From Candidatus Peregrinibacteria bacterium GW2011_GWA2_33_10 (GTDB taxonomy: Bacteria; Patescibacteriota; Gracilibacteria; UBA1369; GWC2-33-13), in the NCBI GenBank assembly GCA_000989565.1, contig LBOO01000005.1, forward strand, positions 1-46,806: a stretch of 46,806 nt of DNA, read 5' to 3'. The position numbers and the translations under genes were made by a program. The notes under the pieces are model-generated. The model had not been told where the DNA came from. It made no database searches and saw nothing but the letters and a program-made list of their open reading frames with translations. Shown here in pieces: positions 7,298 to 46,700 of this stretch. How positions within the stretch are numbered: the stretch's first letter is position 1; each line of letters starts with the position of its first letter.

Positions 7298-10200
7298 ATG
7301 GCCAATCAACAAAACACATCATCAGCTCCAAGCACACAAAATGAGGACATTCAAACTCCTACCACTCTTAATAATCCCGAATTAAAAAAATATGAAAATA
7401 TTCCCGCTTTAATAAAATCCGTGGAAAAACATAAAATTCCGGATAATTATAAAAAATTTCTTAACAATTTTAAAGGTGATGAAGATCAATACAAAGAATA
7501 TTTAAGAAAATACCTGGCAAAAGAACTGAAAATAAACAATCGCGATTTAAATATTAGCCCTACTTTAAGGCAAGCTTTTGATACAAAAGTAAACTCATTA
7601 TATAAAAATGCGCTATTTGAAACACAAGCAAAGCCGGAAGAAATAAAAGATAAATTAAATGATGTATTCAAAAAAGAAGAAAAATCGTTTGACATGAATA
7701 CGTCCACAAATATAGAAGCATTTACAGCTCAAATAATGGAAAAAATGCAAAAAGAATTGACTCCTGAGCAATTTGAAGCATTTAAAAACAATCCGGAAAC
7801 ATTAAAACAAATCGAAATTAAATTTCAGGAAAATCAAAAAATATCACAAAAAATTATAGATGAGACAAATAAAGAAATTGATGATAAAACCTCTGTTTCC
7901 AATGAAAACCTTCTTACTTTCTCAAAAGAAAAAATAAACGATAAAGTGAAACAACCTTTGGTCTCTTACCTAAAAGGAAAAGGAAAAAATATTTTAAATT
8001 TCTTCCTGCCTACCCTAGATAGTAAAATCGAATCCGCCATTGATAAAAAATTCAAATGGCGCGGCTCCATTAATGACAAAGCACAAGCATCAATAAAAGA
8101 TTTATCGTTAAGTCCGACTGATTTGGATGACGTAAAATACCTCAATGACAAAGCATCATTCAGCACTTTGCTAAAACAGAAATTAGGACATGAAATGGAT
8201 GATGACAGTAAACTTTTACTACCTCAATTAAAAGATCCGATTGATAAAAAAATTGATGATCTTTATCTGCAATACAAATCGAACCACCAAGAAAAATCAA
8301 CACAAGCTCTGGCAGATGCCAAAAAAGCATTAAAAATAAACTTTGAAAAAATTGATGAATTGCCTTCTGACAAAGATAAATTTAAAGAGTATTTTACAAA
8401 AAAAATGCATTCTTCAGTTGGCGATAAAAACATCCAATATATTGAAAATCATTTAATTGGTTTGTATGGAGAAATCCATACTCTGTTTGAAGATTATCAA
8501 AAAGAAATAAAAAGAAGAGAAGAGGAAGAAGAGAATGGCAAAGACAAAGAAAAAGGTTCTGACGTGATAAGCTATAAAGAAGCAAAAAAATTAAATCCGA
8601 ATTTAGATCGAGAACACTACGATAAAGCAATCAAAAGAATGGCGCGTTTAAACCAAGTTTTTGGATATAAAGAGCTAATGTTAAAAACAAATGGAAAAAT
8701 GAACAATTTTATATTCATGGCCATTTCCACGCTTGAAGATAACGACTTCAGCCAATTACATGAAAAATTGCTCAAACACTCGCCTGACCACAAAACATTT
8801 TTCCTTAATTTTTTCCATGATCCATTAATAGCAGAGTCCGTTTCGACCATGAAAGGCAAAACAATGGAAAGCTGGAGTGAATTTGAAAAAGGAGTGCAGG
8901 ATATTGGAATTAATCCTAAAGAATTCTTTAAAGAAGAAAAAGAAGAAACAGAGGATAATAAATCCTCGGAAGAAAAAGAAGAAGAAAAAGATAATATTTT
9001 AGAAGAAACTCCGAAAACAGAAGAAAAAATTACTGACAAAGAAAAAATTAAAACTGAAATTTCCTCAGATAATGCTCAAAAATTCGAAGAATTCAAAATA
9101 GAACAAATAAACGACGAACAAAAAATACCAACAAAAAATGAAGAAGAACAAAATGTTATTGATAATGCTCAAACGGAAAAAACAGAAAAAATTGAGGATA
9201 TACAAAAAGAAATAACAGACAAAGATTCACAAGAAGATGTTAAAGAAACCGAGGCCGAAGAAGAACAAAATGAAGAGAAAAAAGAAACAAAGGAAGAAAT
9301 AAAAGAAGATGTTAAAGAAACTGATGTCGATACGGAAAAAGTTGAAAACGAAGAGGAACAAGATGAAAAAACAGAAAAAACACAAAAAGATGAAGAGAAA
9401 AAAGAAACTGTAGAAGAACAAAAAGAAGATGTTAAAGAAACTGATGCCCAAACGGAAAAAGTTGAAAACGAAGAAAAAGAAGATATTAAAAAAACTGATG
9501 TCCATACCGAAAAAATTGAAAACGAAGAAAAAGAAAAACAACAAGATGAAAAAAAAGCCGAAGAAGAAAAAAATGAAGAGAAACAAAAAACAGATGAAGA
9601 ACAAAAAGAAGATGTTAAAAAAACTGATGTCCATACCGAAAAGATTGAAAACGAAGAAAAAGAAAAACAACAAGATGAAAAAAAAGTCGAAGTAGAACAA
9701 AATGAAGAGAAACAAGAAACAGATGAAGAAGAAAAAGAAGATATTAAAAAAACTGATGTCCATACCGAAAAAATTGAAAAAGAAGAAAAAGAAAAACAAC
9801 AAGATGAAAAAAAAGCCGAAGTAGAAAAAAATGAAGAGAAAAAAGAAACAGATGAAGAAATTAAAGAAATCATTGATAATTCCTCTACTCAAATAAAAAC
9901 TGACAATATTGAAGAAAAACCGGCTGAAAAATCTCAAAACATCAAAATAAAATCAGATATAGAAGAAAAAACAGAAGAAATACAAAAAGAACCTGAGATA
10001 AAACCAAAAGAAGAAGCCAAAACAATAATAACTGATTCTAACATTCTTTTTGAAACTCACGAAAATCCGGAAGAACAGCAAGAAGAGGAAGAAGTAGAGG
10101 AACAAAGAGAAGAAACCGAAAAAGACCACAGCTTTAAAAGATTAATCAAATTAAAACAATATTTTGAAGAAAAAAAGAAACTAAAAGAAAAAATTGATGA

Positions 10201-10438
10201 ACAAGAGCTGCAAAAAGCCGCGGAAATAGCTTATCAACTATGGCTTAAATTAACTCGGGAACGACTCTTGGACCGTGAAAATATGACATTGGAAATATTG
10301 ATAGAACTACTAAAAGAAGAAGCTTCCGAAAACCAATCCGCTCAAATTATTCAAAAAATTATGGATTTATTAAAAGACTATCCGGAATTTCAAAAATATT
10401 TACTTCAAATATTGGAAGCATTAAAAAAGGAAAAATAA
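7298..10438 (+). CDS. Large acidic E/K-rich repeat protein, 1046 residues
   Basis: This protein of unknown function lacks a signal peptide or membrane segment. Residues 1 to about 440 are helical, non-repetitive and rich in FxxYFxKK-type segments. A second conserved-looking block (about 425-545) follows. Residues about 545-965 are extremely rich in Glu and Lys and predicted disordered or single-helix. Inside that region a 43-residue unit (starting KEDVKKTDVHTEKIENEEKE) is tandemly repeated, with three near-identical copies at 729-857 and more diverged copies upstream. The last 80 residues form a compact helical domain (from about DHSFKRLIKLKQYF onward). It could be a cytoplasmic scaffold or spacer. 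It has its own promoter and ends 3 bp from the convergent K+ channel gene. Long minus-strand open frames opposite the repeat are composition artefacts. Confidence 0.8.
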   Translation: MANQQNTSSAPSTQNEDIQTPTTLNNPELKKYENIPALIKSVEKHKIPDNYKKFLNNFKGDEDQYKEYLRKYLAKELKINNRDLNISPTLRQAFDTKVNSLYKNALFETQAKPEEIKDKLNDVFKKEEKSFDMNTSTNIEAFTAQIMEKMQKELTPEQFEAFKNNPETLKQIEIKFQENQKISQKIIDETNKEIDDKTSVSNENLLTFSKEKINDKVKQPLVSYLKGKGKNILNFFLPTLDSKIESAIDKKFKWRGSINDKAQASIKDLSLSPTDLDDVKYLNDKASFSTLLKQKLGHEMDDDSKLLLPQLKDPIDKKIDDLYLQYKSNHQEKSTQALADAKKALKINFEKIDELPSDKDKFKEYFTKKMHSSVGDKNIQYIENHLIGLYGEIHTLFEDYQKEIKRREEEEENGKDKEKGSDVISYKEAKKLNPNLDREHYDKAIKRMARLNQVFGYKELMLKTNGKMNNFIFMAISTLEDNDFSQLHEKLLKHSPDHKTFFLNFFHDPLIAESVSTMKGKTMESWSEFEKGVQDIGINPKEFFKEEKEETEDNKSSEEKEEEKDNILEETPKTEEKITDKEKIKTEISSDNAQKFEEFKIEQINDEQKIPTKNEEEQNVIDNAQTEKTEKIEDIQKEITDKDSQEDVKETEAEEEQNEEKKETKEEIKEDVKETDVDTEKVENEEEQDEKTEKTQKDEEKKETVEEQKEDVKETDAQTEKVENEEKEDIKKTDVHTEKIENEEKEKQQDEKKAEEEKNEEKQKTDEEQKEDVKKTDVHTEKIENEEKEKQQDEKKVEVEQNEEKQETDEEEKEDIKKTDVHTEKIEKEEKEKQQDEKKAEVEKNEEKKETDEEIKEIIDNSSTQIKTDNIEEKPAEKSQNIKIKSDIEEKTEEIQKEPEIKPKEEAKTIITDSNILFETHENPEEQQEEEEVEEQREETEKDHSFKRLIKLKQYFEEKKKLKEKIDEQELQKAAEIAYQLWLKLTRERLLDRENMTLEILIELLKEEASENQSAQIIQKIMDLLKDYPEFQKYLLQILEALKKEK
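9482..9868 (+). repeat. In-gene tandem repeat, three 129-bp units
   Basis: Three copies begin at 9482, 9611 and 9740, each 129 bp (43 codons), marked by the shared core AAAACTGATGTCCATACCGA. Diverged or partial units begin at 9308 and 9428. Copies are nearly identical at DNA level, which suggests recent expansion by slippage or recombination. Confidence 0.85.
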
Positions 10439-17343: not shown

Positions 17344-18348
17344 TCAATGGCAGCTTGCATTTGCGCTATCAACATCCGCGCTTCCAAAACCAAACCCTGC
17401 GCTTGGAGTATCTTTTGACAATTCCTTCCCGCAGTCTTCAGGCTGTACGGAAAAACCTTCGCATACCGCCTTTAACATGGAATTCGGATCTCTGTTTGAT
17501 TCTTTCTGCACTCCATTAATCACTATAGAAGGAGACCCCTTAATCCCATAAAGATCATTTTCGTCTTTATTGATATTAAATTGCGGAAATTGACCGCTAA
17601 CCCAAGAGCTTTTATCAGCAAACAATTCTGAAATCTTAAATTCTTTATCGGTTTTCTCCACACATTTTGTTAAATTCTTTTTATCGATTCCCGCTCTATC
17701 TAAACAACCCGCACCATCGCTATCAACCAAAAAACATTTCAAATAAGTATCAAAATTATCACTTTGTTCTTTTTGAATACAGTATTGATTTAACTGCTCA
17801 TCAACTTCCGTTTTCCCATGCATGGCATAATCAACAAATTTAATTGAAAAATCAATCTTATCCTTTAAAAGTTCTTTAACCGGTAATATTCCTTTTTCCG
17901 TCTGTGTACCATAAGGACAATGACTCATAACAAAAAGTTCGACTTTTGGTTTCGCTGTTTTGGGAATCTCTTTATTTTTAGCGGCTTCCAGCGATTTCTG
18001 TTCCTCAACCTTTTTCTTATAATCTTCAATATCTAAAGCTTCAGCAAAAAAATACTTACCGTCACTACTTATAAATGAACTGACTTCTCTCCCATCCGGA
18101 AGTTTGATTTTAAACTTATTAATCTCGACTTTCTCAAAATCATCACCCAAGGTAGCTTTGCTTTCTGAATCAAACAATAAATAGTTATTTACAAAATCCA
18201 AAGAATTTTCTTTAAGCTCTTCAGAACTTAAAAAAACTTGTTTCTTATCAGCTTTGTCTTTTTCTTTCTCCCCCGAATCACTCGCCACATTCGCGCAACC
18301 CGTGATAACTAAAACCAAAATTAACAATAAAACATTAATTTTTTTCAT
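17344..18348 (-). CDS. Lipoprotein with DsbA/thioredoxin-like domain and single-cysteine CPYG motif
   Basis: Residues 1-18 are a lipoprotein signal with lipobox VITGC (Cys18), so the protein is probably membrane-anchored and faces outward. A Lys/Glu-rich spacer and a small domain (about 40-110) precede a thioredoxin-fold domain (about 133-300). That domain has VELFVMSHCPYGTQTEKG (136-153) and the cis-Pro loop YGIKGSPSIVING (267-279). The active-site position reads CPYG rather than CxxC, so only one of the two redox cysteines is present. Several other cysteines (190, 205, 215, 229, 296, 306, 333) sit in the helical insert and tail. It could act in isomerisation or thiol capture rather than as a normal oxidase. 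It is transcribed alone and ends in a rho-independent terminator. Confidence 0.8.
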   Translation of the reverse strand: MKKINVLLLILVLVITGCANVASDSGEKEKDKADKKQVFLSSEELKENSLDFVNNYLLFDSESKATLGDDFEKVEINKFKIKLPDGREVSSFISSDGKYFFAEALDIEDYKKKVEEQKSLEAAKNKEIPKTAKPKVELFVMSHCPYGTQTEKGILPVKELLKDKIDFSIKFVDYAMHGKTEVDEQLNQYCIQKEQSDNFDTYLKCFLVDSDGAGCLDRAGIDKKNLTKCVEKTDKEFKISELFADKSSWVSGQFPQFNINKDENDLYGIKGSPSIVINGVQKESNRDPNSMLKAVCEGFSVQPEDCGKELSKDTPSAGFGFGSADVDSANASCH

Positions 18349-29974: not shown

Positions 29975-30003
29975 TTGACCAATAGATAAAATTATAATAT
30001 AAT
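29975..30003 (+). promoter_or_regulatory. Promoter of the paired-cysteine protein genes
   Basis: TTGACC (29975-29980), 17 bp, then TATAAT (29998-30003). The -35 is only 3 bp from the -35 of the divergent L,D-transpeptidase promoter. The leader to 30063 is about 53 nt. Confidence 0.65.
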
Positions 30004-30062: not shown

Positions 30063-32522
30063 ATGTCTGAAAAACAAAAATCAAACAAAAAGCTGATAAA
30101 ACTGGTCATCAGCTTATCAATAATGCTTGTTCTTATAGCTGCGGCATTATTTGCCATTAATGGCTACAATAATACCAATACCGAAAAAGGTAGCGCGAAA
30201 CTGCAAATCGAGAAAAAAAATTCACCTAAAAAAATTAAAGACGCGTCAAAAATTATCTCGCAAGCTACCGCGACTTTTGATGCTTTAGACATCAACATCA
30301 ACACTTTTATCGATTGGTATCTGATTTACGCCTCCAATGATCCTGTAAAATTAGAACAAGCTATAAAAAATGCCTGCGATAATTTTATTAATACTCAATC
30401 GAGTTTGGCTAAAACAGATGCTAACAAAACAAAATGCGCCAATACCCTTACGATAATTTTCAATGATATCAAAAAATACAAAGTATCTTCTGAAGAAACA
30501 ACCACCAGTACTGAATATGTCAGCGTAAAAACCTATACTCAACTTGCTGAAATTATAATCAATGATTTGCGCGCGGCAGAAAGCGCCGGTAACGACACTA
30601 TCCTTTTCTTCAATGCTCAAGAAATGAGAATGATAATGGATGAAATCGAAGCCATTCAAAAAGCTTCAGATGATGAGAAAAAAGCCGCGATAATCAAAGC
30701 GGCAAAAGATATTTCCAAATTGGCTGCAAATAAAGCCGACATTACCGCTTTAAACTCATACTGCGACACAAATTTTACCGATGAACAATTGGAAATATGT
30801 AAATTGGCCATCAGTTTAATTGAAATATATAAAGGAAGTGAAAGTCTGAACGGTCAAGTTTCTTCTGTCGTGATTCCTAAAATCTGCGAAACATACGCTC
30901 CGGATTATTCGGATTGTGCCGTAATTTTAAATATAATCGCCAAAAACATTCAAGAATATTATGTCGCTTACAGTAAAAACACCTCATTGGTAGAACCTTT
31001 TGTAGTAAGCGTTATAACTGATTTGATGAATTCCGGTTATCTGAAAATTACTTTGGAAGATATTCAAAAAATTACAAATAGTGTAAACGCGATACAACTA
31101 GCAATTGCCAACGGAGATATAAAAACAGCAGTCACTTTATCCCAAGAATTAGCCAAAGAAATATCAACAATTGTGGTAACTGAAGAAAATATCCAAAAAG
31201 CATTAATTTTCTGCAACCAAGCTGAAAATGAAAAAACCGAAAATATATGTATTTTGCTGGCAAAATCCGCGGCTCTCTACACGGATTCGGAATTGGTGAA
31301 TGGTGATATTATAGAAGAAGTTTGCGAAAACACTTTTACCACGGAAGAAAATATAGGCAAATGTATGATTGGATTGGAAATAATAGTTAAAGAAATTGAG
31401 GATTGGTATAAAGGCGGCTATAGCGTAGTGGATATGGAGCAATATTTAGTATCTATTATTGATGAATTATATAAAGCCGGCGCGATCACGGATGAAGAAA
31501 ATTATCAACAAATAGTTACCATCATCGAAAGCGCGAATGCTTTCCACAAGGCAATAATTGAAAAAGATAAAGAAGCGATGAAAAAAAGCGCGGAAACTTT
31601 ATCTGTAGAAATCGCTAAATTAATTAAAAATAATGTAACGATTGAAGATCTCGAAAAAGTATGCGAAAAATCAACGAAAAGCGAACTTTGTAAAACATTT
31701 ATAGAAACTACCATAATATTAAATGAATATGGCATTAAAACAAAAGAAGATGTAAAACCTACGTTAATCGCTTTGAGCTGTCAAAAAGCTTTCCCTGAAG
31801 ATACTGACAAACAACAATCTTGTGTCAATGCTATGACAGCAATTTCAGACTTGGCAAAATACTATTATGAAACTTTCGACATTAATGAATATCAAGCCAA
31901 TAAAGATGAAAACAACAATGGTATAAACGATTATATTGAAACCATGACAAAACAATTCTTAAATGATGTTGTAAATATATTGACTGCGAACATACAATCC
32001 CAAGATTTACAAAATTTTGTCAAAGCTCTAAAAAATTATAATGAATCTGAAAAAACACAAGAAGATAAAGAAAACCTTAAAACTTCCTCTAAAGAATTAG
32101 GAAAATCTCTTATAACAAACGAAAAAGCAGTAGAAACAGCAAAAAAAGTTTGTGAAGAAAAAATTACCGATGAAACATTGCAGGAATCATGTAAAACTGC
32201 TGTTTTAGCCTTGGAAATTTATCAAAACTCTCAAAACGCCAATAAAAGCGATGAAGATAAACAAGAAGATATGAGCGAACTCATAAGCAGGATTTGCTCA
32301 AAATCCGATGACCCGACAACCTGTACAAAAAGCCTGAATGCAATAAACAATACAGCAAAAAAATATTACCCTGAATACAAATCCACAGAGGAAAGCTTGG
32401 AAAATTACTTAACTGATACCAAAAAACAAGAAATTGTCGCAACTCTGGCAAAAGAATTATTTATTGCCGAGGTTATAACAATAGGTGATTTAATCGCTAT
32501 TCTTGAAGCTTCTCAAAACTAA
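30063..32522 (+). CDS. Membrane-anchored helical repeat protein with nine cysteine pairs, 819 residues
   Basis: A short basic N-terminus and a single membrane segment (about 11-33) place the rest outside the membrane. The remainder is almost all helical. There are 18 cysteines, every one in a close pair: 105/125, 234/246, 275/285, 384/396, 421/434, 534/543, 573/587, 698/710 and 745/754. The first members of alternate pairs recur about every 150 residues (234, 384, 534, 698; and 105, 275, 421, 573, 745). This gives a repeat of about 150 residues with two cysteine hairpins, most likely disulfide-stapled helices. No known domain is recognised. It is first in a unit with a 663-residue paralogue 62 bp downstream. 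Ligand and role unknown; a surface scaffold or adhesin is possible. Confidence 0.8.
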   Translation: MSEKQKSNKKLIKLVISLSIMLVLIAAALFAINGYNNTNTEKGSAKLQIEKKNSPKKIKDASKIISQATATFDALDININTFIDWYLIYASNDPVKLEQAIKNACDNFINTQSSLAKTDANKTKCANTLTIIFNDIKKYKVSSEETTTSTEYVSVKTYTQLAEIIINDLRAAESAGNDTILFFNAQEMRMIMDEIEAIQKASDDEKKAAIIKAAKDISKLAANKADITALNSYCDTNFTDEQLEICKLAISLIEIYKGSESLNGQVSSVVIPKICETYAPDYSDCAVILNIIAKNIQEYYVAYSKNTSLVEPFVVSVITDLMNSGYLKITLEDIQKITNSVNAIQLAIANGDIKTAVTLSQELAKEISTIVVTEENIQKALIFCNQAENEKTENICILLAKSAALYTDSELVNGDIIEEVCENTFTTEENIGKCMIGLEIIVKEIEDWYKGGYSVVDMEQYLVSIIDELYKAGAITDEENYQQIVTIIESANAFHKAIIEKDKEAMKKSAETLSVEIAKLIKNNVTIEDLEKVCEKSTKSELCKTFIETTIILNEYGIKTKEDVKPTLIALSCQKAFPEDTDKQQSCVNAMTAISDLAKYYYETFDINEYQANKDENNNGINDYIETMTKQFLNDVVNILTANIQSQDLQNFVKALKNYNESEKTQEDKENLKTSSKELGKSLITNEKAVETAKKVCEEKITDETLQESCKTAVLALEIYQNSQNANKSDEDKQEDMSELISRICSKSDDPTTCTKSLNAINNTAKKYYPEYKSTEESLENYLTDTKKQEIVATLAKELFIAEVITIGDLIAILEASQN

Positions 32523-32584
32523 AAAACAGCTTCTTCTATTCGAAGCCATTTAAAATATTTTATATTCATTTAATAAAAACAAAA

Positions 32585-34576
32585 ATGACAGACCAAAACA
32601 AATCAAACAAATCTAAAAAAATAATTTTTGGATTGGCAGTACTCCTCGTTTTCGTAATAACTATAGTTTTTATAGGCTCACAAAACTATAAAGGAGATAA
32701 AGATCCCGGCAGCGCTCAATTACAATTACAGAAAAAAAGTGCTCCAAAAACAAAGCCGGCTTCCATAGCTTCAATTATTTCTAAAAACGCTGAAGCCTTC
32801 AAAGCAACGGAAGATAAAATCGCGCTTCTGATCAAAATTTATCAAATTGCAAAAGACCCGTCTGAAGTTGCAAAATATATAGATTCAGCTTGTAATAAAC
32901 AATTCACGCCTGACTCAGATGCGGCTAAAAAATGTATCGCAATCTTAAAAGCGGCTGACGTACAATTACGACTTTATTATCAAGCAGCAGAAAAACCAAC
33001 TGCAAAAACATTAATGACTAATATGCTTGTTGACCTTACTACACCTCCGGAGGATGTACTTTCCCCAAGTTTGGTAACTGATATTCCAACTATAAACGCA
33101 AGCCTTCAAGCTCTGATTAAAGCTGTTGAATCAGGAAATAAAGAAGAAATTGTAATTGCTGCCACTAAACTGGCCGGCGACATTTATACTTTAGCTGAAA
33201 ACGCAGGCACATTACAAAAAGCAATGGATTATTGCGTTACACAAAGCAAATACGAAAATCTATGTAAACTGGCTGTAAGTATCAAAAACTTTTATGACAC
33301 ATACACAATTGAGGGAAAAGAAGACTTGGCTCCCGCTTTAATCGATGCCGCTTGCAATAAAGCATTTGCTGAAAATTCAGCTGAAAATTTGGCAACTTGT
33401 GTTGATGTCGCGACTATTGCTTTAGAAACATACCAAAACGGCAGCTACACAAAAGACAAAACAGGTTTTGAAGCCTATGTTAAAGACGTAATGACCGCTT
33501 TAACGTCCGGCGAAAATCCCGTGATTAAAATCAATGAAAATTTAACTGCTGTAATTCAAAGCTTCACTGCTTTAGCTGAAGCAATGCAAAATGAAGTTGC
33601 GGGAGACGAACAAGATGCCGCGAAAGCATTTGCAATGGAAATGGCAAAATTAACATTAAACATTGCGTCTGAAGATTTGGCCGCGACCAAATCTGCATGT
33701 TTGGCACAACTTGAAAATGAAAATGAAGAACAAATTTGCGAATATTTAATCACCGGTATAAATCTTTTAAATAATTATATTGCCACCGGAGAATCAGGTG
33801 AATTGAACAAAGAAGCAATAGTTGATACTGCTTGCGAGTTGGCTATAGACAAAATGAACAGCGAAGATAAACCGGCTGCCAAAGAGAAATGTAAAAATAC
33901 AGTCAATGCTATTATGGAAATAACTGCAAAATATAAAACTGAATATCAGACTGAAAAAGAAACAAATCCCGATCTTACCGTAAAAACATATTTAACAGAC
34001 AACGAAAATGCAACTTTAATCGCATTCATACTTGACTTAAGCAATTCATTGGCTTCAATCAATCTTTCAGCGGAAGAATTAACTTTAATAACAAATGCTC
34101 TTAAAGCTTTCAAAGATGTTGAAAATTTAGAAGGATTCATCAAAACATCGGCAAATTTAGGTAAAACCTTATTATCTATTGCTGATACGGAAATTTTAAC
34201 TGACAAATGTGAACAAGTTGAAGATCCTGAAATGTGCAAAACAGTGGTTGGCTTGATTGCGATCTATCAAGACGCTGAAAAAAGCGGAGACAGCTCAAAA
34301 CAAGCTATTATAGACAGCAGTATAAATTTGGTTTGCGCTGATGATGAAAGCGAAACAGGAGTTGATGAAAATTGTGTCGGAGCATTGACTGATTTAACAA
34401 AATTAACTCAAGCCGAATATGAATTATACAAAAATTCAGGCTATGATAAACCTCAAGACTATATAGACGCGAATTCAGACAAAATCAATGAAATAATTTT
34501 AAATGTAATTAAAATAGCATTTAAATACGAATACATCACAGTTGAAGAGGCCATGAAAATCATAAAAGGACTATAG
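32585..34576 (+). CDS. Paralogous membrane-anchored paired-cysteine helical repeat protein, 663 residues
   Basis: This is the paralogue of the preceding gene, with the same layout: basic start, one membrane segment (about 12-31), the shared GSAxLQ(I/L)xKK motif, then extracellular helical repeats. It has 14 cysteines in seven pairs: 103/117, 217/227, 257/272, 372/385, 417/436, 542/551 and 584/597. The spacing of about 155-170 residues matches its partner, but there is one repeat fewer. Typical pair contexts are DAACNKAFAENSAENLATC and DYCVTQSKYENLC. The genes probably arose by duplication, followed by loss or gain of a repeat. It is followed by a strong terminator. Function unknown. Confidence 0.8.
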   Translation: MTDQNKSNKSKKIIFGLAVLLVFVITIVFIGSQNYKGDKDPGSAQLQLQKKSAPKTKPASIASIISKNAEAFKATEDKIALLIKIYQIAKDPSEVAKYIDSACNKQFTPDSDAAKKCIAILKAADVQLRLYYQAAEKPTAKTLMTNMLVDLTTPPEDVLSPSLVTDIPTINASLQALIKAVESGNKEEIVIAATKLAGDIYTLAENAGTLQKAMDYCVTQSKYENLCKLAVSIKNFYDTYTIEGKEDLAPALIDAACNKAFAENSAENLATCVDVATIALETYQNGSYTKDKTGFEAYVKDVMTALTSGENPVIKINENLTAVIQSFTALAEAMQNEVAGDEQDAAKAFAMEMAKLTLNIASEDLAATKSACLAQLENENEEQICEYLITGINLLNNYIATGESGELNKEAIVDTACELAIDKMNSEDKPAAKEKCKNTVNAIMEITAKYKTEYQTEKETNPDLTVKTYLTDNENATLIAFILDLSNSLASINLSAEELTLITNALKAFKDVENLEGFIKTSANLGKTLLSIADTEILTDKCEQVEDPEMCKTVVGLIAIYQDAEKSGDSSKQAIIDSSINLVCADDESETGVDENCVGALTDLTKLTQAEYELYKNSGYDKPQDYIDANSDKINEIILNVIKIAFKYEYITVEEAMKIIKGL

Positions 34577-34600
34577 TAAACACAGTAAATTGACACCTAA

Positions 34601-34640
34601 AAAGCTGAAAGGAATTGATTTCCTTTCAGCTTTTTTAATT
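34601..34640 (+). terminator. Rho-independent terminator after the paired-cysteine genes
   Basis: A perfect 14-bp stem (AAAGCTGAAAGGAA at 34601-34614 with 34620-34633) closes a 5-nt loop. The stem is preceded by A-rich and followed by T-rich sequence. It lies 25 bp after the stop at 34576. Confidence 0.9.
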
Positions 34641-39984: not shown

Positions 39985-42900
39985 TTAATTACCCTGCTCT
40001 TCAATAATTCTTGTTCCAGTAGTGATCTGTCCATTTGTTTCTAGACGAGCACCTGAGATACGACCCTCGTCATCAGCATGTTGATCAACATTAATAAACT
40101 GAATACCCATATACTCTTGTACCCTGTTTCCTGATCCTAAATCTGAATGACCGAATACGAAACCGTTTATCCCAAGATCGTCTCTAAAATAATTTAATAA
40201 ATCTGAATCCAAACTACGAATTTGCTCTTCAGCTAAAGTTCTATTATTGGTATCCAAAAAAGTATCAAATAAATAATTATATCTTTCTTTATCATAAGCC
40301 TTACCCTCTAAAAGTTTTGCTCTGAGTACAGCCTGAAACTTCGCATTAATAGTTTCTATATCTTCATTTTTTATTAATTCTAAAATCTCGCTAGTAGGAT
40401 CTGTATGTATATGAATTCTATTTTTTCTTCTAACACATAGCTCCCATTTAGAAATCTCTTCTAAAATTGCCCTACCTTCAGGATAATTACGCATATTATT
40501 TAAAATTTCATCTGCATTTAACCTGCTTCCCTCAAAATCAGGTCCAAAAAAACTTTCTATCATTTTTGATTTACCATCTTTCCCTCTTTGTCCGGAAAAT
40601 TTAGTAAATTCTAGAAGTCCTCTCCCTTGATCATATAACATTGCCGGACCTAGGCCGTTTTTATGAACTCCTCCTCTATCTAAAAGCCATGAAAAAACAA
40701 AATCATCATGATTTCCAGCTATAACATCAAAATCCTGTCCTTGAACAGCAGCTTGTTCTCTTAATTTTGAAAGATGTAAAATAATTTTAAAACTATCGCA
40801 AGAACGATCTCCCATAATATCCCCATGGATAACTGGATTTGCATTTGGAAGCAAATCTCCATTTTCGTCTATCACGCCGGTAAGCCTCATACATTTCCAA
40901 TAAGTTTCCCATCTGCCATTTGTGTCCCCAATAGCCAAAACCCGTCTTTCTTGATCATAGTCATTTGATTCCGCTAACCTAGATACTTCCTCAGCTTTTA
41001 TTACATCAGTAAGAGCCATTAAATTTTCTTCAGGGTTATTAAGATCATTCTGATCAATAAAAGATGTGAGAGAGCGGTCATTTTCGCCTTGTAATATCAT
41101 TTTAGACAATCCGCCTCTACTATCTCTTCTAATATCAACAATTCTCCATCTGACATTAGGAGCCCGTGTTAAGATAATATCTCCAATATCAGCTCTTTCT
41201 AGCTTCTCAACAATACTTGGCTTAAAATTCATCGCTTCTCTTTGTTCCCCTCCCCCCGGTCTTTGCTGAGGAATATTAGACCTTCCTTTTGGGGATGAAC
41301 CCTTTTCAATTCTATTTACAAAAGTCGGCATTTGATCTAAATCTAATTCCCATTTCTCATTGTCTTGAGATAATAACCTAAATCTAGGATTACCTTCATA
41401 ATCATAAGTAACATCAATTACCTTATGTTTTACCCCGAACGAAGTAATTATCAAATCACCAACTTGAAGATTTCTAACCTGTTCCTCTAACTTCTGATTC
41501 TCTTTTCTCTCAGATTTAATAACATCCGTAAAGGCACCTAAATTCTCGTCAGGATCTCTTAAATCATCCTCGGTAATAGTGCTGGTAAGAGATGGATCAT
41601 TTACTTCTTGCAAAGACATAGAAACTAAATTGCCTCTACTGTCTCTTTTAATATCAATTATTCTCCATCTTACATTTGTCGCTCGCGTTAGGATGATATC
41701 TCCGATCTGAGCTCGCTCTAGCTTTTCAACAATTTTCAATTTCACCCGCAAAGGTTCTCTTTGCTCAACATTTAATCTTTGTTGAGGAGATTGAGAAGGT
41801 AATTGAATCTTATACGCCAATCCATTTGTGGAAACATCCATAATAGTTACCTTATCTCCATTCCTTCTAATCTTTAAATGTTGGCCTGAAACAGTGCGAG
41901 GCAAATTCGGATCAGTATCTCGTCCCCAACTTATTACTTGCCCACTTATAACGGTTTCCGGAGAACCTTCAGCGTAACCTTTAATAATAAAGTCACTTCC
42001 TCGCTTAAAAATCATCCCGAATGGAGTTTGTGTGTTCTTTGTATATAATAAAGTCCTACCAATAGGCACTATCTCAAACGACTTACCTCTTTCAACAACA
42101 TTAGGAATAGATTCCCTCTGTATTCCTCCCAAATATCCCTCTCTGATCAATTTGGCCGCTTCTTTTAAAGAACATCCCATCATTTTTGCTGCTTCCTCAT
42201 CTTTAGCCTTTAAAAAAGATAATCCCTTCTTTTCTCCAATATTTTGAAAAAATTCATGATCAGGATTATGTACTTCTCTAAACCATGTTTTTTGTTCATC
42301 AGTTAACTGCCGCCCAAATTTCTTTTCTATTTCAACAATTCTGTCATCCAAAGATAGTTGGCTAACCCTTGTCACTTCAGGAGTAATATCTTTATTTACA
42401 GGTTTTAAAACTGTGACGTTTCTTCCCGCATCGTTTTCGATAGTAATTATCATATCTCCATTATCCCTTTCAAAACTGGCTCCCGGAATATTCTTATAAT
42501 ATTCTTCCACTACATTTTGCTTTTCAGGTTCATACAGTCCTTCACTCTCATCAAAATATGATACAGCATCATGTAATTCCGGCTTCGAAGGACCTTGCAT
42601 ACACATAGTTAAAGAAGTCAAATAGGCTAATATCGCGCCTAAACCTATCTTCTTCCCGGCAATATCAATGCCACCTAATCTTTTATCAAGTTGGTTTCCT
42701 ACTTCTCCCATGATCCCTTCAATCACTTCCTCCAAATGTTCAGATAACAATTCTCGCGATAATTTATTAAAAATAGCCTTTTCCGTTCCCTCCAGTCCTC
42801 CCTCTGCCATAGTAAATGTATTTTTTAAATTCACTAAATTTCGCTGAACAATTTCAGCGCCTTCTCCAATTACGCCTTGAAGTCCTTCTTTCCCGCCATA

Positions 42901-44949
42901 GCGCGCAACTAAAATTTTTAATCCTTGGCCAGATAAATTACCTAATCCAATTATTGCGAATGTACTTGCAAAATTCATAAAAAATTCCGGCCCAAACGTA
43001 TTAACCAGTTCTTGAATAGCTTCTGTATTTAATTTTCCATACTTTTCTGTAATTTGTACTGCTCTCGATTGAACATTTTCTGAATCGGTAAGTTCGTGAT
43101 AAAATGCAGCGTAGGTTTCTCCTCCCAATATTCCTCCCGCTGCTCCTAAAGCTGACACTAATGCAATTCCCCCAATTCCACCAACAGGCAATGTAGCCAT
43201 AAAAGTTGTAATAAGAACAACTGAAGTAGTTATAGATGCAATCATCCTGGCCCCGTCCTGCTCGAGCCATTTACCAAAATCATCATGATCAAAATCTCGA
43301 TGATTTACTTTATTTAAAAATTTTTCTAAACCCCCTTTGTCTAAATTGTCAGCAATTTCAGTATATGCAACTTCCAATTCTCTGATTTGCCTTTCAAATT
43401 CATCAGTGATTAACCCCGGATTTAATTCCCGTAATTCCCTTAAAGCATCCTGAGCCTTCGGAATTTCTAACTTTAAAAAAGAAATATTTACCATTAAAGT
43501 GTCAGCTTTACCGCGTACCAAATCAACAAAATTTTCCGGTTTTTTCCCCATCATACCTGCTCTATATAGCTTCTGAATTTCTAATAAGTCTGTTTGGAAT
43601 AAAGAAGAAATTTGTGATACTGCATTTATATGCCGATTTGTACCTAAAGATGTTTTTAACTTTTCTCTAGCTGCGAAATTTTCGTTTTTGATATTCTGGT
43701 TCCCGACGATATGTAAATCCTCAAGCTTAATAGACTTTATAAATTCTTGCGATTGTCTGTCTTCAGGATTTAAAATGCTCATTTCATCCATTGTTAAAAT
43801 TACTCCCGCTTCTTCTTTCGTTAGAATCTCATTTTTTAACATTTCGATTTGAAGATTTAAATTTTCAGGTACTTTATCTTTAAATCTTTTTATTACCTGA
43901 AGTGCGAATTTCAACCGATCATTCCATTCATTAGCAGGGCTTAATTTTTTTGAAAATTCATCAATAACCGAATTATCATATTCAGGATTATTTCTATTAT
44001 GCTCTGTCAAAGCTTGTTTTAAAGCTTCATTGTCTTTGCCCAACAAAATATTTTCATAAAAATTCAATTCAATTCCACTTCTCTCCTTCTTTTGTAACTC
44101 CCCTCTTAAAACAAATAATTGCGTAGATATAAACGCAGGCAAATCCGCACCAAATTCCCGCATAGCGTCTACCAATATTTTTTCCATTTCTTCCTGGTCT
44201 CTTACTTTATTAATTTTTTCTAAATAAGTTGCTTCCCTTTTTTCTTTTTCTTTCTCTAAAAATGGATTTAAAATAGATTGCAAAATCAAATTTGCATCTT
44301 GAATTTCAGTTTCTATTTTATTTAAATCATCTATCGTAGCTGAAATTTCCTGATCATTAACACCAACACCCATAATAAATCCTCTTGCCCCCACTTTACC
44401 GGCACTTTTATTTCTACTTACGAGTAATATTATTCTTTGAAACAAATTTTCTTTCCTTAAATTAGCTGCTTGTATCAACTCATATTGTTTTTCAATAATC
44501 TTCAGTTGTTCAGGATTCAAAGCTAAATTATCTAAATTTTTAAATCTTTCCAAAAGTCCATCAGTCACTTCACGCAAATTAGCTTTATTTAACGAACCCA
44601 AACTTTGTTCAAAATTATCTAACTCTGATAATAAATTCTCAATCAGAATCTTTAATTCTTCTTCCGAATCTCTCTCAATATTGTGCAATTCGTCTTCTCT
44701 GTCTTTTAAAATATTTCCTAAATCTGATTTCAATCTCTCCTTATATTCTCTATCTAAACCTGAATTCTCAATCTTTTGTTCAATCTTATTAAATTTCTTT
44801 TTGATATCCTCATCTCTAATTTCTTCATCTTTCTCAGGTGATAATTGAAGCGTCTTTTCTCTAGCATCTACAGCTTTAGAAAAATTCTCCGCTTCTTGGT
44901 GATAAAAAACCAATCTATTTTTTCCAAATATTTCGTTTTTGTTTTCCAT
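39985..44949 (-). CDS. Giant protein with coiled coil, FHA domain, duplicated module and PPP-like metallophosphatase, 1654 residues
   Basis: Residues 1-560 are helical, with coiled-coil character and no signal peptide. Two Gly-rich hydrophobic segments (569-612 and about 767-784) could insert in the membrane. An FHA domain (about 985-1055) has SWGRDTDPNLPRTVSGQH and DVSTNG, the phosphothreonine-binding signature. A module of about 77 residues (IVEKLERAxIGDIILTRAxN) is present twice, at 1073-1150 and 1246-1320, with a diverged third between (LQVGDLIITSFGVKHKVIDV). The C-terminus is a calcineurin-like phosphoesterase with all metal motifs: GDTNG (1341-1345), GDIMGDR (1376-1382), GNHDD (1412-1416) and GHS (1600-1602). 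Joining phosphothreonine reading to a Ser/Thr phosphatase suggests phosphosignalling; no kinase is in the window. It is preceded by a small gene 9 bp upstream. Confidence 0.85.
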   Translation of the reverse strand: MENKNEIFGKNRLVFYHQEAENFSKAVDAREKTLQLSPEKDEEIRDEDIKKKFNKIEQKIENSGLDREYKERLKSDLGNILKDREDELHNIERDSEEELKILIENLLSELDNFEQSLGSLNKANLREVTDGLLERFKNLDNLALNPEQLKIIEKQYELIQAANLRKENLFQRIILLVSRNKSAGKVGARGFIMGVGVNDQEISATIDDLNKIETEIQDANLILQSILNPFLEKEKEKREATYLEKINKVRDQEEMEKILVDAMREFGADLPAFISTQLFVLRGELQKKERSGIELNFYENILLGKDNEALKQALTEHNRNNPEYDNSVIDEFSKKLSPANEWNDRLKFALQVIKRFKDKVPENLNLQIEMLKNEILTKEEAGVILTMDEMSILNPEDRQSQEFIKSIKLEDLHIVGNQNIKNENFAAREKLKTSLGTNRHINAVSQISSLFQTDLLEIQKLYRAGMMGKKPENFVDLVRGKADTLMVNISFLKLEIPKAQDALRELRELNPGLITDEFERQIRELEVAYTEIADNLDKGGLEKFLNKVNHRDFDHDDFGKWLEQDGARMIASITTSVVLITTFMATLPVGGIGGIALVSALGAAGGILGGETYAAFYHELTDSENVQSRAVQITEKYGKLNTEAIQELVNTFGPEFFMNFASTFAIIGLGNLSGQGLKILVARYGGKEGLQGVIGEGAEIVQRNLVNLKNTFTMAEGGLEGTEKAIFNKLSRELLSEHLEEVIEGIMGEVGNQLDKRLGGIDIAGKKIGLGAILAYLTSLTMCMQGPSKPELHDAVSYFDESEGLYEPEKQNVVEEYYKNIPGASFERDNGDMIITIENDAGRNVTVLKPVNKDITPEVTRVSQLSLDDRIVEIEKKFGRQLTDEQKTWFREVHNPDHEFFQNIGEKKGLSFLKAKDEEAAKMMGCSLKEAAKLIREGYLGGIQRESIPNVVERGKSFEIVPIGRTLLYTKNTQTPFGMIFKRGSDFIIKGYAEGSPETVISGQVISWGRDTDPNLPRTVSGQHLKIRRNGDKVTIMDVSTNGLAYKIQLPSQSPQQRLNVEQREPLRVKLKIVEKLERAQIGDIILTRATNVRWRIIDIKRDSRGNLVSMSLQEVNDPSLTSTITEDDLRDPDENLGAFTDVIKSERKENQKLEEQVRNLQVGDLIITSFGVKHKVIDVTYDYEGNPRFRLLSQDNEKWELDLDQMPTFVNRIEKGSSPKGRSNIPQQRPGGGEQREAMNFKPSIVEKLERADIGDIILTRAPNVRWRIVDIRRDSRGGLSKMILQGENDRSLTSFIDQNDLNNPEENLMALTDVIKAEEVSRLAESNDYDQERRVLAIGDTNGRWETYWKCMRLTGVIDENGDLLPNANPVIHGDIMGDRSCDSFKIILHLSKLREQAAVQGQDFDVIAGNHDDFVFSWLLDRGGVHKNGLGPAMLYDQGRGLLEFTKFSGQRGKDGKSKMIESFFGPDFEGSRLNADEILNNMRNYPEGRAILEEISKWELCVRRKNRIHIHTDPTSEILELIKNEDIETINAKFQAVLRAKLLEGKAYDKERYNYLFDTFLDTNNRTLAEEQIRSLDSDLLNYFRDDLGINGFVFGHSDLGSGNRVQEYMGIQFINVDQHADDEGRISGARLETNGQITTGTRIIEEQGN
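40990..41742 (-). repeat. In-gene duplicated module (two ~230-bp copies) of the giant protein
   Basis: Copies at about 41512-41742 (residues 1070-1146) and 40990-41220 (residues 1244-1320) encode near-identical segments. Both contain GDIILTRA, NVRWRI and DSRG. A diverged third copy lies between. Likely an internal duplication. Confidence 0.8.
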
Positions 44950-46582: not shown

Positions 46583-46700
46583 CGTAATCCGTAATTCGTA
46601 ATCTGTAATCCGTAATTCGTAAAAAGAATAATTTTATTATAATAAAATTCAATTTACGGATTACGGATTACGAATTACGAATTACGGATTACAAATTACA
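46583..46700. repeat. TTACGGATT-family long hairpin repeat
   Basis: The left arm (about 46583-46621) is built of CGTAATCCGTAATTCGTAAT-type units. The right arm (about 46654-46700) repeats TTACGGATTACGGATTACGA. The loop is itself a 20-bp perfect palindrome (AATTTTATTATAATAAAATT). The whole 118 bp can form one hairpin. It is the longest of three family members here. Confidence 0.85.

Follow-up and report, generated by a model that had tools for sequence, protein, structure and literature searches.

Two paralogous, N-terminally anchored proteins built from a four-cysteine, predicted helical repeat in a Candidatus Peregrinibacteria genome

The window analyzed in this work is a stretch of 46,806 nucleotides (contig LBOO01000005.1) from Candidatus Peregrinibacteria bacterium GW2011_GWA2_33_10, whose genome (1.26 Mb in 30 contigs, 86.8% complete) is placed in the order that holds Ca. 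Peribacteria/Peregrinibacteria. An initial annotation of this DNA had described two open reading frames at 30063-34576 as paralogous surface proteins that follow a single N-terminal membrane anchor; the coordinates proved exact, and one N-terminal hydrophobic segment was found in each protein. The two genes, here called A and B, and the elements that belong to them are the following:

29975-30003, forward strand: candidate promoter TTGACC-17-TATAAT, about 60 nt upstream of A, proposed from its consensus match only (11 of 12 positions)
30063-32522, forward strand: gene A, 819 aa with 18 Cys; N-terminal anchor, half-unit, four full units and C-terminal helical cap
30096-30161, forward strand: hydrophobic anchor of A, residues ~12-33, following a Lys-rich N-terminus (sequence)
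30243-30485, forward strand: half-unit A0, residues 61-141, with C105/C125, a pair of the C3/C4 type only (Cys pattern, profile, model)
30528-30971, forward strand: unit A1, residues 156-303, C234/C246 and C275/C285 (Cys pattern, profile, model)
30981-31412, forward strand: unit A2, residues 307-450, C384/C396 and C421/C434 (Cys pattern, profile, model)
31425-31874, forward strand: unit A3, residues 455-604, C534/C543 and C573/C587 (Cys pattern, profile, model)
31923-32366, forward strand: unit A4, residues 621-768, C697/C710 and C745/C754, also modelled alone (Cys pattern, profile, models)
32415-32519, forward strand: C-terminal helices of A, residues 785-819, a probable cap (predicted models)
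32585-34576, forward strand: gene B, 663 aa with 14 Cys; N-terminal anchor, half-unit and three full units
32618-32677, forward strand: hydrophobic anchor of B, residues ~12-31 (sequence)
32762-32989, forward strand: half-unit B0, C103/C117 (Cys pattern; A0 and B0 are mutual best matches)
33023-33454, forward strand: unit B1, C217/C227 and C257/C272 (Cys pattern, profile, unit alignment)
33488-33949, forward strand: unit B2, C372/C385 and C417/C436 (Cys pattern, profile, unit alignment)
33998-34429, forward strand: unit B3, C542/C551 and C584/C597 (Cys pattern, profile, unit alignment)
34599-34635, forward strand: intrinsic-terminator-like hairpin after B, 16 pairs followed by a U-rich tail (sequence)

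The gap between A and B is 62 bases, so that the two genes are likely to be transcribed together. The divergent neighbour at 29380-29910 matches the YkuD L,D-transpeptidase family of Pfam. A foreign origin of A and B was considered and finds no support in composition, the GC3 of both genes being close to that of the neighbouring genes. The proteins are 25-29% identical (BLASTP 4e-22), which bears out their paralogy, and they differ by one repeat, as had been noticed earlier. At the DNA level BLASTN detects no similarity between them; the duplication is thus old, with the cysteines retained.

The cysteines listed above are all those present in A and B. Their numbers agree with the initial annotation, as does the observation that every one of them lies in a pair whose members are 9-20 residues apart; placing the cysteines at random produced pairing as tight in 1 of 200,000 trials for A and in 32 of 200,000 for B. 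The recurrence about every 150-170 residues is equally confirmed, given that the spacing between the first cysteines of successive full units is 150, 150 and 163 residues in A, and 155 and 170 in B. Two features had escaped the earlier description: the pairs are of two types, which together form a four-cysteine unit (C1-x8-12-C2-x24-34-C3-x8-18-C4), and both proteins open with a half-unit that bears the second pair only. A repeat profile recovers five stretches in A, the first of which is the half-unit, and four in B, whose initial half-unit is recognised by its cysteine pattern. The sequences of the full units have diverged widely (~18-27% identity to the reference unit in a first alignment, 21-26% in a second); in an alignment of the seven full units with 253 columns, the 28 cysteines all fall in four invariant columns, and only two other columns, one Ala and one Tyr, are invariant. 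As A0 and B0 carry the second pair without the first, the C3-C4 pair is self-sufficient; this favours a connectivity C1-C2 plus C3-C4, which would be the simplest reading of the pattern. The possibility that, within a unit, the two types of hairpin share an origin by duplication is not supported by the comparison of their profiles (probability 0.7%).

The composition of A and B is also unusual. Arg, His and Trp together make up 0.73% of A and 0.15% of B, the two lowest values among the 624 proteins of at least 250 aa in this genome, where the mean is 6.25% for proteins without an N-terminal anchor and 4.47% for those with one. B contains one Arg and neither His nor Trp in 663 residues, and A has at most one His. 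Both are acidic (pI 4.68 for A and 4.55 for B), with Lys as almost the sole basic residue. Such a composition agrees with an extracellular structural protein that is cheap and abundant, were A and B indeed abundant. S-layer-type surface proteins are likewise acidic, have hardly any basic residue other than Lys and are very poor in His, Trp and Arg. In general, S-layer proteins are Cys-poor and are not all-helical repeats; Pfam reveals no SLH domain in A or B, and they show no known S-layer fold.

The genome encodes a likely means of oxidizing exported cysteines. A VKOR-family oxidase, with a match well above the cut-off, is present on another contig (C2:45567-45965), and within the window we noted the following gene:

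17344-18348, reverse strand: candidate extracytoplasmic thiol oxidoreductase with a lipoprotein-like N-terminus and a CPYG motif (Thioredoxin_4, E=0.025, a weak match below the curated cut-off)

It is possible that this protein helps in disulfide formation; given that the thioredoxin match is sub-threshold, the assignment is a guess. On a genomic scale, using simple custom scripts for gene calling and hydrophobicity, we counted the cysteines of all proteins with at least two of them, leaving out A and B and taking as exported those with one N-terminal hydrophobic segment. An even number was found in 39 of 47 proteins with such a segment, against 271 of 485 without it (Fisher p=2.8e-4); the latter also have a slight even-Cys bias (p=0.011). 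In the exported proteins, again without A and B, 66% of sequential cysteine pairs lie within 20 residues, versus 32% at random placement. Local pairing is consequently usual among the exported proteins of this genome, which supports disulfides in A and B, yet makes their pairing less remarkable. Two other large exported proteins illustrate the trait: one of 1060 aa (C10:41771-44953), which has 18 Cys, mostly in close pairs, and PPPPDG repeats rich in Pro, has no Pfam family above the cut-off, and one of 1332 aa (C8:27905-31903), which has paired cysteines as well (24 Cys in total), has no Pfam match at E<=0.01. With an even number of cysteines, an N-terminal hydrophobic segment and a VKOR encoded in the same genome, A and B agree in these traits with disulfide-bonded exported proteins, and an extracytoplasmic location is supported. 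The disulfides proposed in the initial annotation have in this way gained strength from the invariant cysteine columns, the VKOR and the even-Cys bias of exported proteins; the sulfur distances near 2 angstrom that were expected with them are not established.

The structural models are of low confidence. AlphaFold predicted full-length A, from an alignment of two rows, as entirely helical (pLDDT 39.1, pTM 0.24), and the same was true for unit A4 with seven paralogous units as alignment rows (pLDDT 58.3, pTM 0.47). Both models concur in seven helices per unit, with the cysteine pairs at the turns between helices 4 and 5 and between helices 6 and 7; in the A4 model C697 and C745 lie close to the ends of helices 4 and 6, and C710 and C754 early in helices 5 and 7, respectively. 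The helix boundaries that the full-length model gives for the remaining units of A place their pairs in a similar manner. Fold searches with these models returned no match at E<=0.001, the PDB included. The helical solenoid suggested at first is therefore upheld as to its helical and repetitive nature, while at these pLDDT values the solenoid itself is not established; moreover, an odd number of helices per unit (seven) fits a simple antiparallel stack poorly, and a regular solenoid is accordingly not assured.

The failure of the first reading to match a known family was reproduced in every collection. Pfam, NCBIfam and PHROGs gave chance-level matches only, and the PDB gave nothing significant either by sequence or by unit profile. 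The unit profile found no convincing match in the order (89 genomes, 88 besides its own), the class (353 genomes, 352 besides its own) or a sample of the phylum (380 genomes), where the residual matches outside its own genome are weak (15-18 bits). Four of these weak loci were inspected and discarded as unrelated or due to chance (translation-factor-like, TPR-like and DnaK-like proteins, and a short non-homologous frame), and of a fifth only a fragment was read. In its own genome A and B are the sole strong matches, and the next is a short ORF of 14 bits. Phages, with A as query, and plasmids, with B as query, contained no homologue, and scans of the genome and viral contigs with a few sequence patterns, whose reach is close relatives only, yielded no further match. 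The purL-purQ pair is kept in 15 relatives, in which the downstream genes are unrelated to A and B, and a convincing relative was likewise missing from 124 purL-linked loci. The genomes searched included no other member of the bacterium's own taxonomic family. The repeat family, which was detected in no other genome searched, is likely to be lineage-specific.

Taking these results together, we favour, as somewhat more probable than not being so, the interpretation that A and B form a disulfide-stapled rod or scaffold of helices at the surface of the cell, encoded by a two-gene unit and with a structural or adhesive job. The products would be single-pass, signal-anchored extracytoplasmic proteins, whose outside part would be a tandem array of units of ~150-170 residues with mainly seven helices. 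In each unit two consecutive turns (h4/h5 and h6/h7) would each be pinned by a local disulfide, C1-C2 and C3-C4, which the VKOR-type oxidase and a thioredoxin-like partner would introduce once the protein is exported. These pins could stiffen a long, acidic rod of helices on the outside of the cell with no need of further covalent attachment, and the length of the rod would be tuned by the number of repeats. Such a rod may serve as a spacer or scaffold, or for contact with a host, on the envelope of a Peribacteria-like cell that is small and probably host-associated. In this scheme the helix positions and the cysteines at the turns are predicted with low confidence, and we infer the disulfide connectivity, the rod shape, the abundance and the structural or adhesive role, the last of which finds no support in gene neighbourhood, domains or homologues.

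The most serious competitor, although on the unlikely side, is that A and B are generic exported repeat proteins with the usual local disulfides, whose units are independent globular domains of helices, strung one after another, and not a continuous solenoid. Exported proteins throughout the genome, such as the two large ones on contigs C8 and C10, show local cysteine pairing, pTM is low, and the full-length model of A predicts no packing between units; in contrast, the spacing of the units is regular, the first helix of the next unit adjoins the preceding one, and the linkers are short, with few Gly or Pro.

Disulfide-pinned helix hairpins have a precedent in solved bacterial proteins (PMC12904459): HcpB and HcpC of Helicobacter, with Sel1-like repeats, and Csep1P of Campylobacter are alpha-hairpin solenoids pinned by disulfides (PMC12904459; PMC4746701). 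Like these, A and B would be extracytoplasmic helical repeats with local cysteine pairs (9 residues apart in Csep1P), their helices being predicted. The presumed use of the same mechanical device raises the idea of a divergent Sel1-like/TPR protein of the Hcp type with degenerate repeats, which we regard as improbable. No Sel1 or TPR profile matches A or B at E<=1 in Pfam, nor does any NCBIfam family; there is no PDB sequence match to HcpB or HcpC, and neither is among the listed fold matches, although models of this low confidence could miss a superposable fold. In addition, the unit of ~150-170 aa with about seven predicted helices differs from the short two-helix Sel1-type unit, only two predicted turns would be pinned by the four cysteines present per ~155 residues, and A and B carry a membrane anchor. 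With neither the profile match nor the unit size of Sel1-like proteins, they are not classed as members of that group, though they may work alike. The binding of a metal or cofactor (e.g. haem, Zn) by the cysteine pairs, conceivable in principle for regular pairs borne on helices, is very improbable considering the variable within-pair spacing (9-20), the lack of CxxC or CxxCH motifs, the near absence of His, and the predicted location outside the membrane of a cell with a VKOR.

Returning to the stapled rod, large exported Cys-rich proteins with a proposed role in attachment have been described in Peribacteria, together with one encoded disulfide-formation protein (PMC4736985). Those of Ca. 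Peribacter, for which rigidity or attachment has been suggested as a role, contain 7.2% Cys on average and are similar to Myxococcus Cys-rich repeats or to FG-GAP proteins (PMC4736985). A and B belong to the same order-level group and are likewise large, exported and Cys-bearing, in a genome with a disulfide-forming protein; in contrast, they have ~2.1% Cys, are predicted to be all-helical and are unmatched in the order, since the profile gave no convincing match to this Cys-rich set in its 88 other genomes. That the seven-helix, four-cysteine unit is a new repeat fold from one Peribacteria-related lineage, building disulfide-stapled host-contact surface rods, is a tentative proposal that we judge to be fairly unlikely. 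The mechanical principle of disulfide-pinned helix repeats was already known; this repeat family is apparently an orphan, and adds to the poorly known surface of the Patescibacteria. If the fold proves to be new, it would represent a rigid rod of natural origin, made of disulfide-pinned helices. The exported proteins of this Peribacteria-related genome moreover bear, as seen with an internal control, an even-Cys signature in the presence of a VKOR, a general mark of oxidative folding.

Other regions of the window also deserve mention. A predicted protein of 1046 aa (7298-10438), which contains a tandem repeat rich in Lys and Glu (~3.1 copies with a period of 129 bp, at 9470-9868), has no Pfam match, and one of 1654 aa (39985-44949) has no Pfam family above the cut-off. 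Near the end of the contig, 7-bp tandem repeats are located at 46583-46699.
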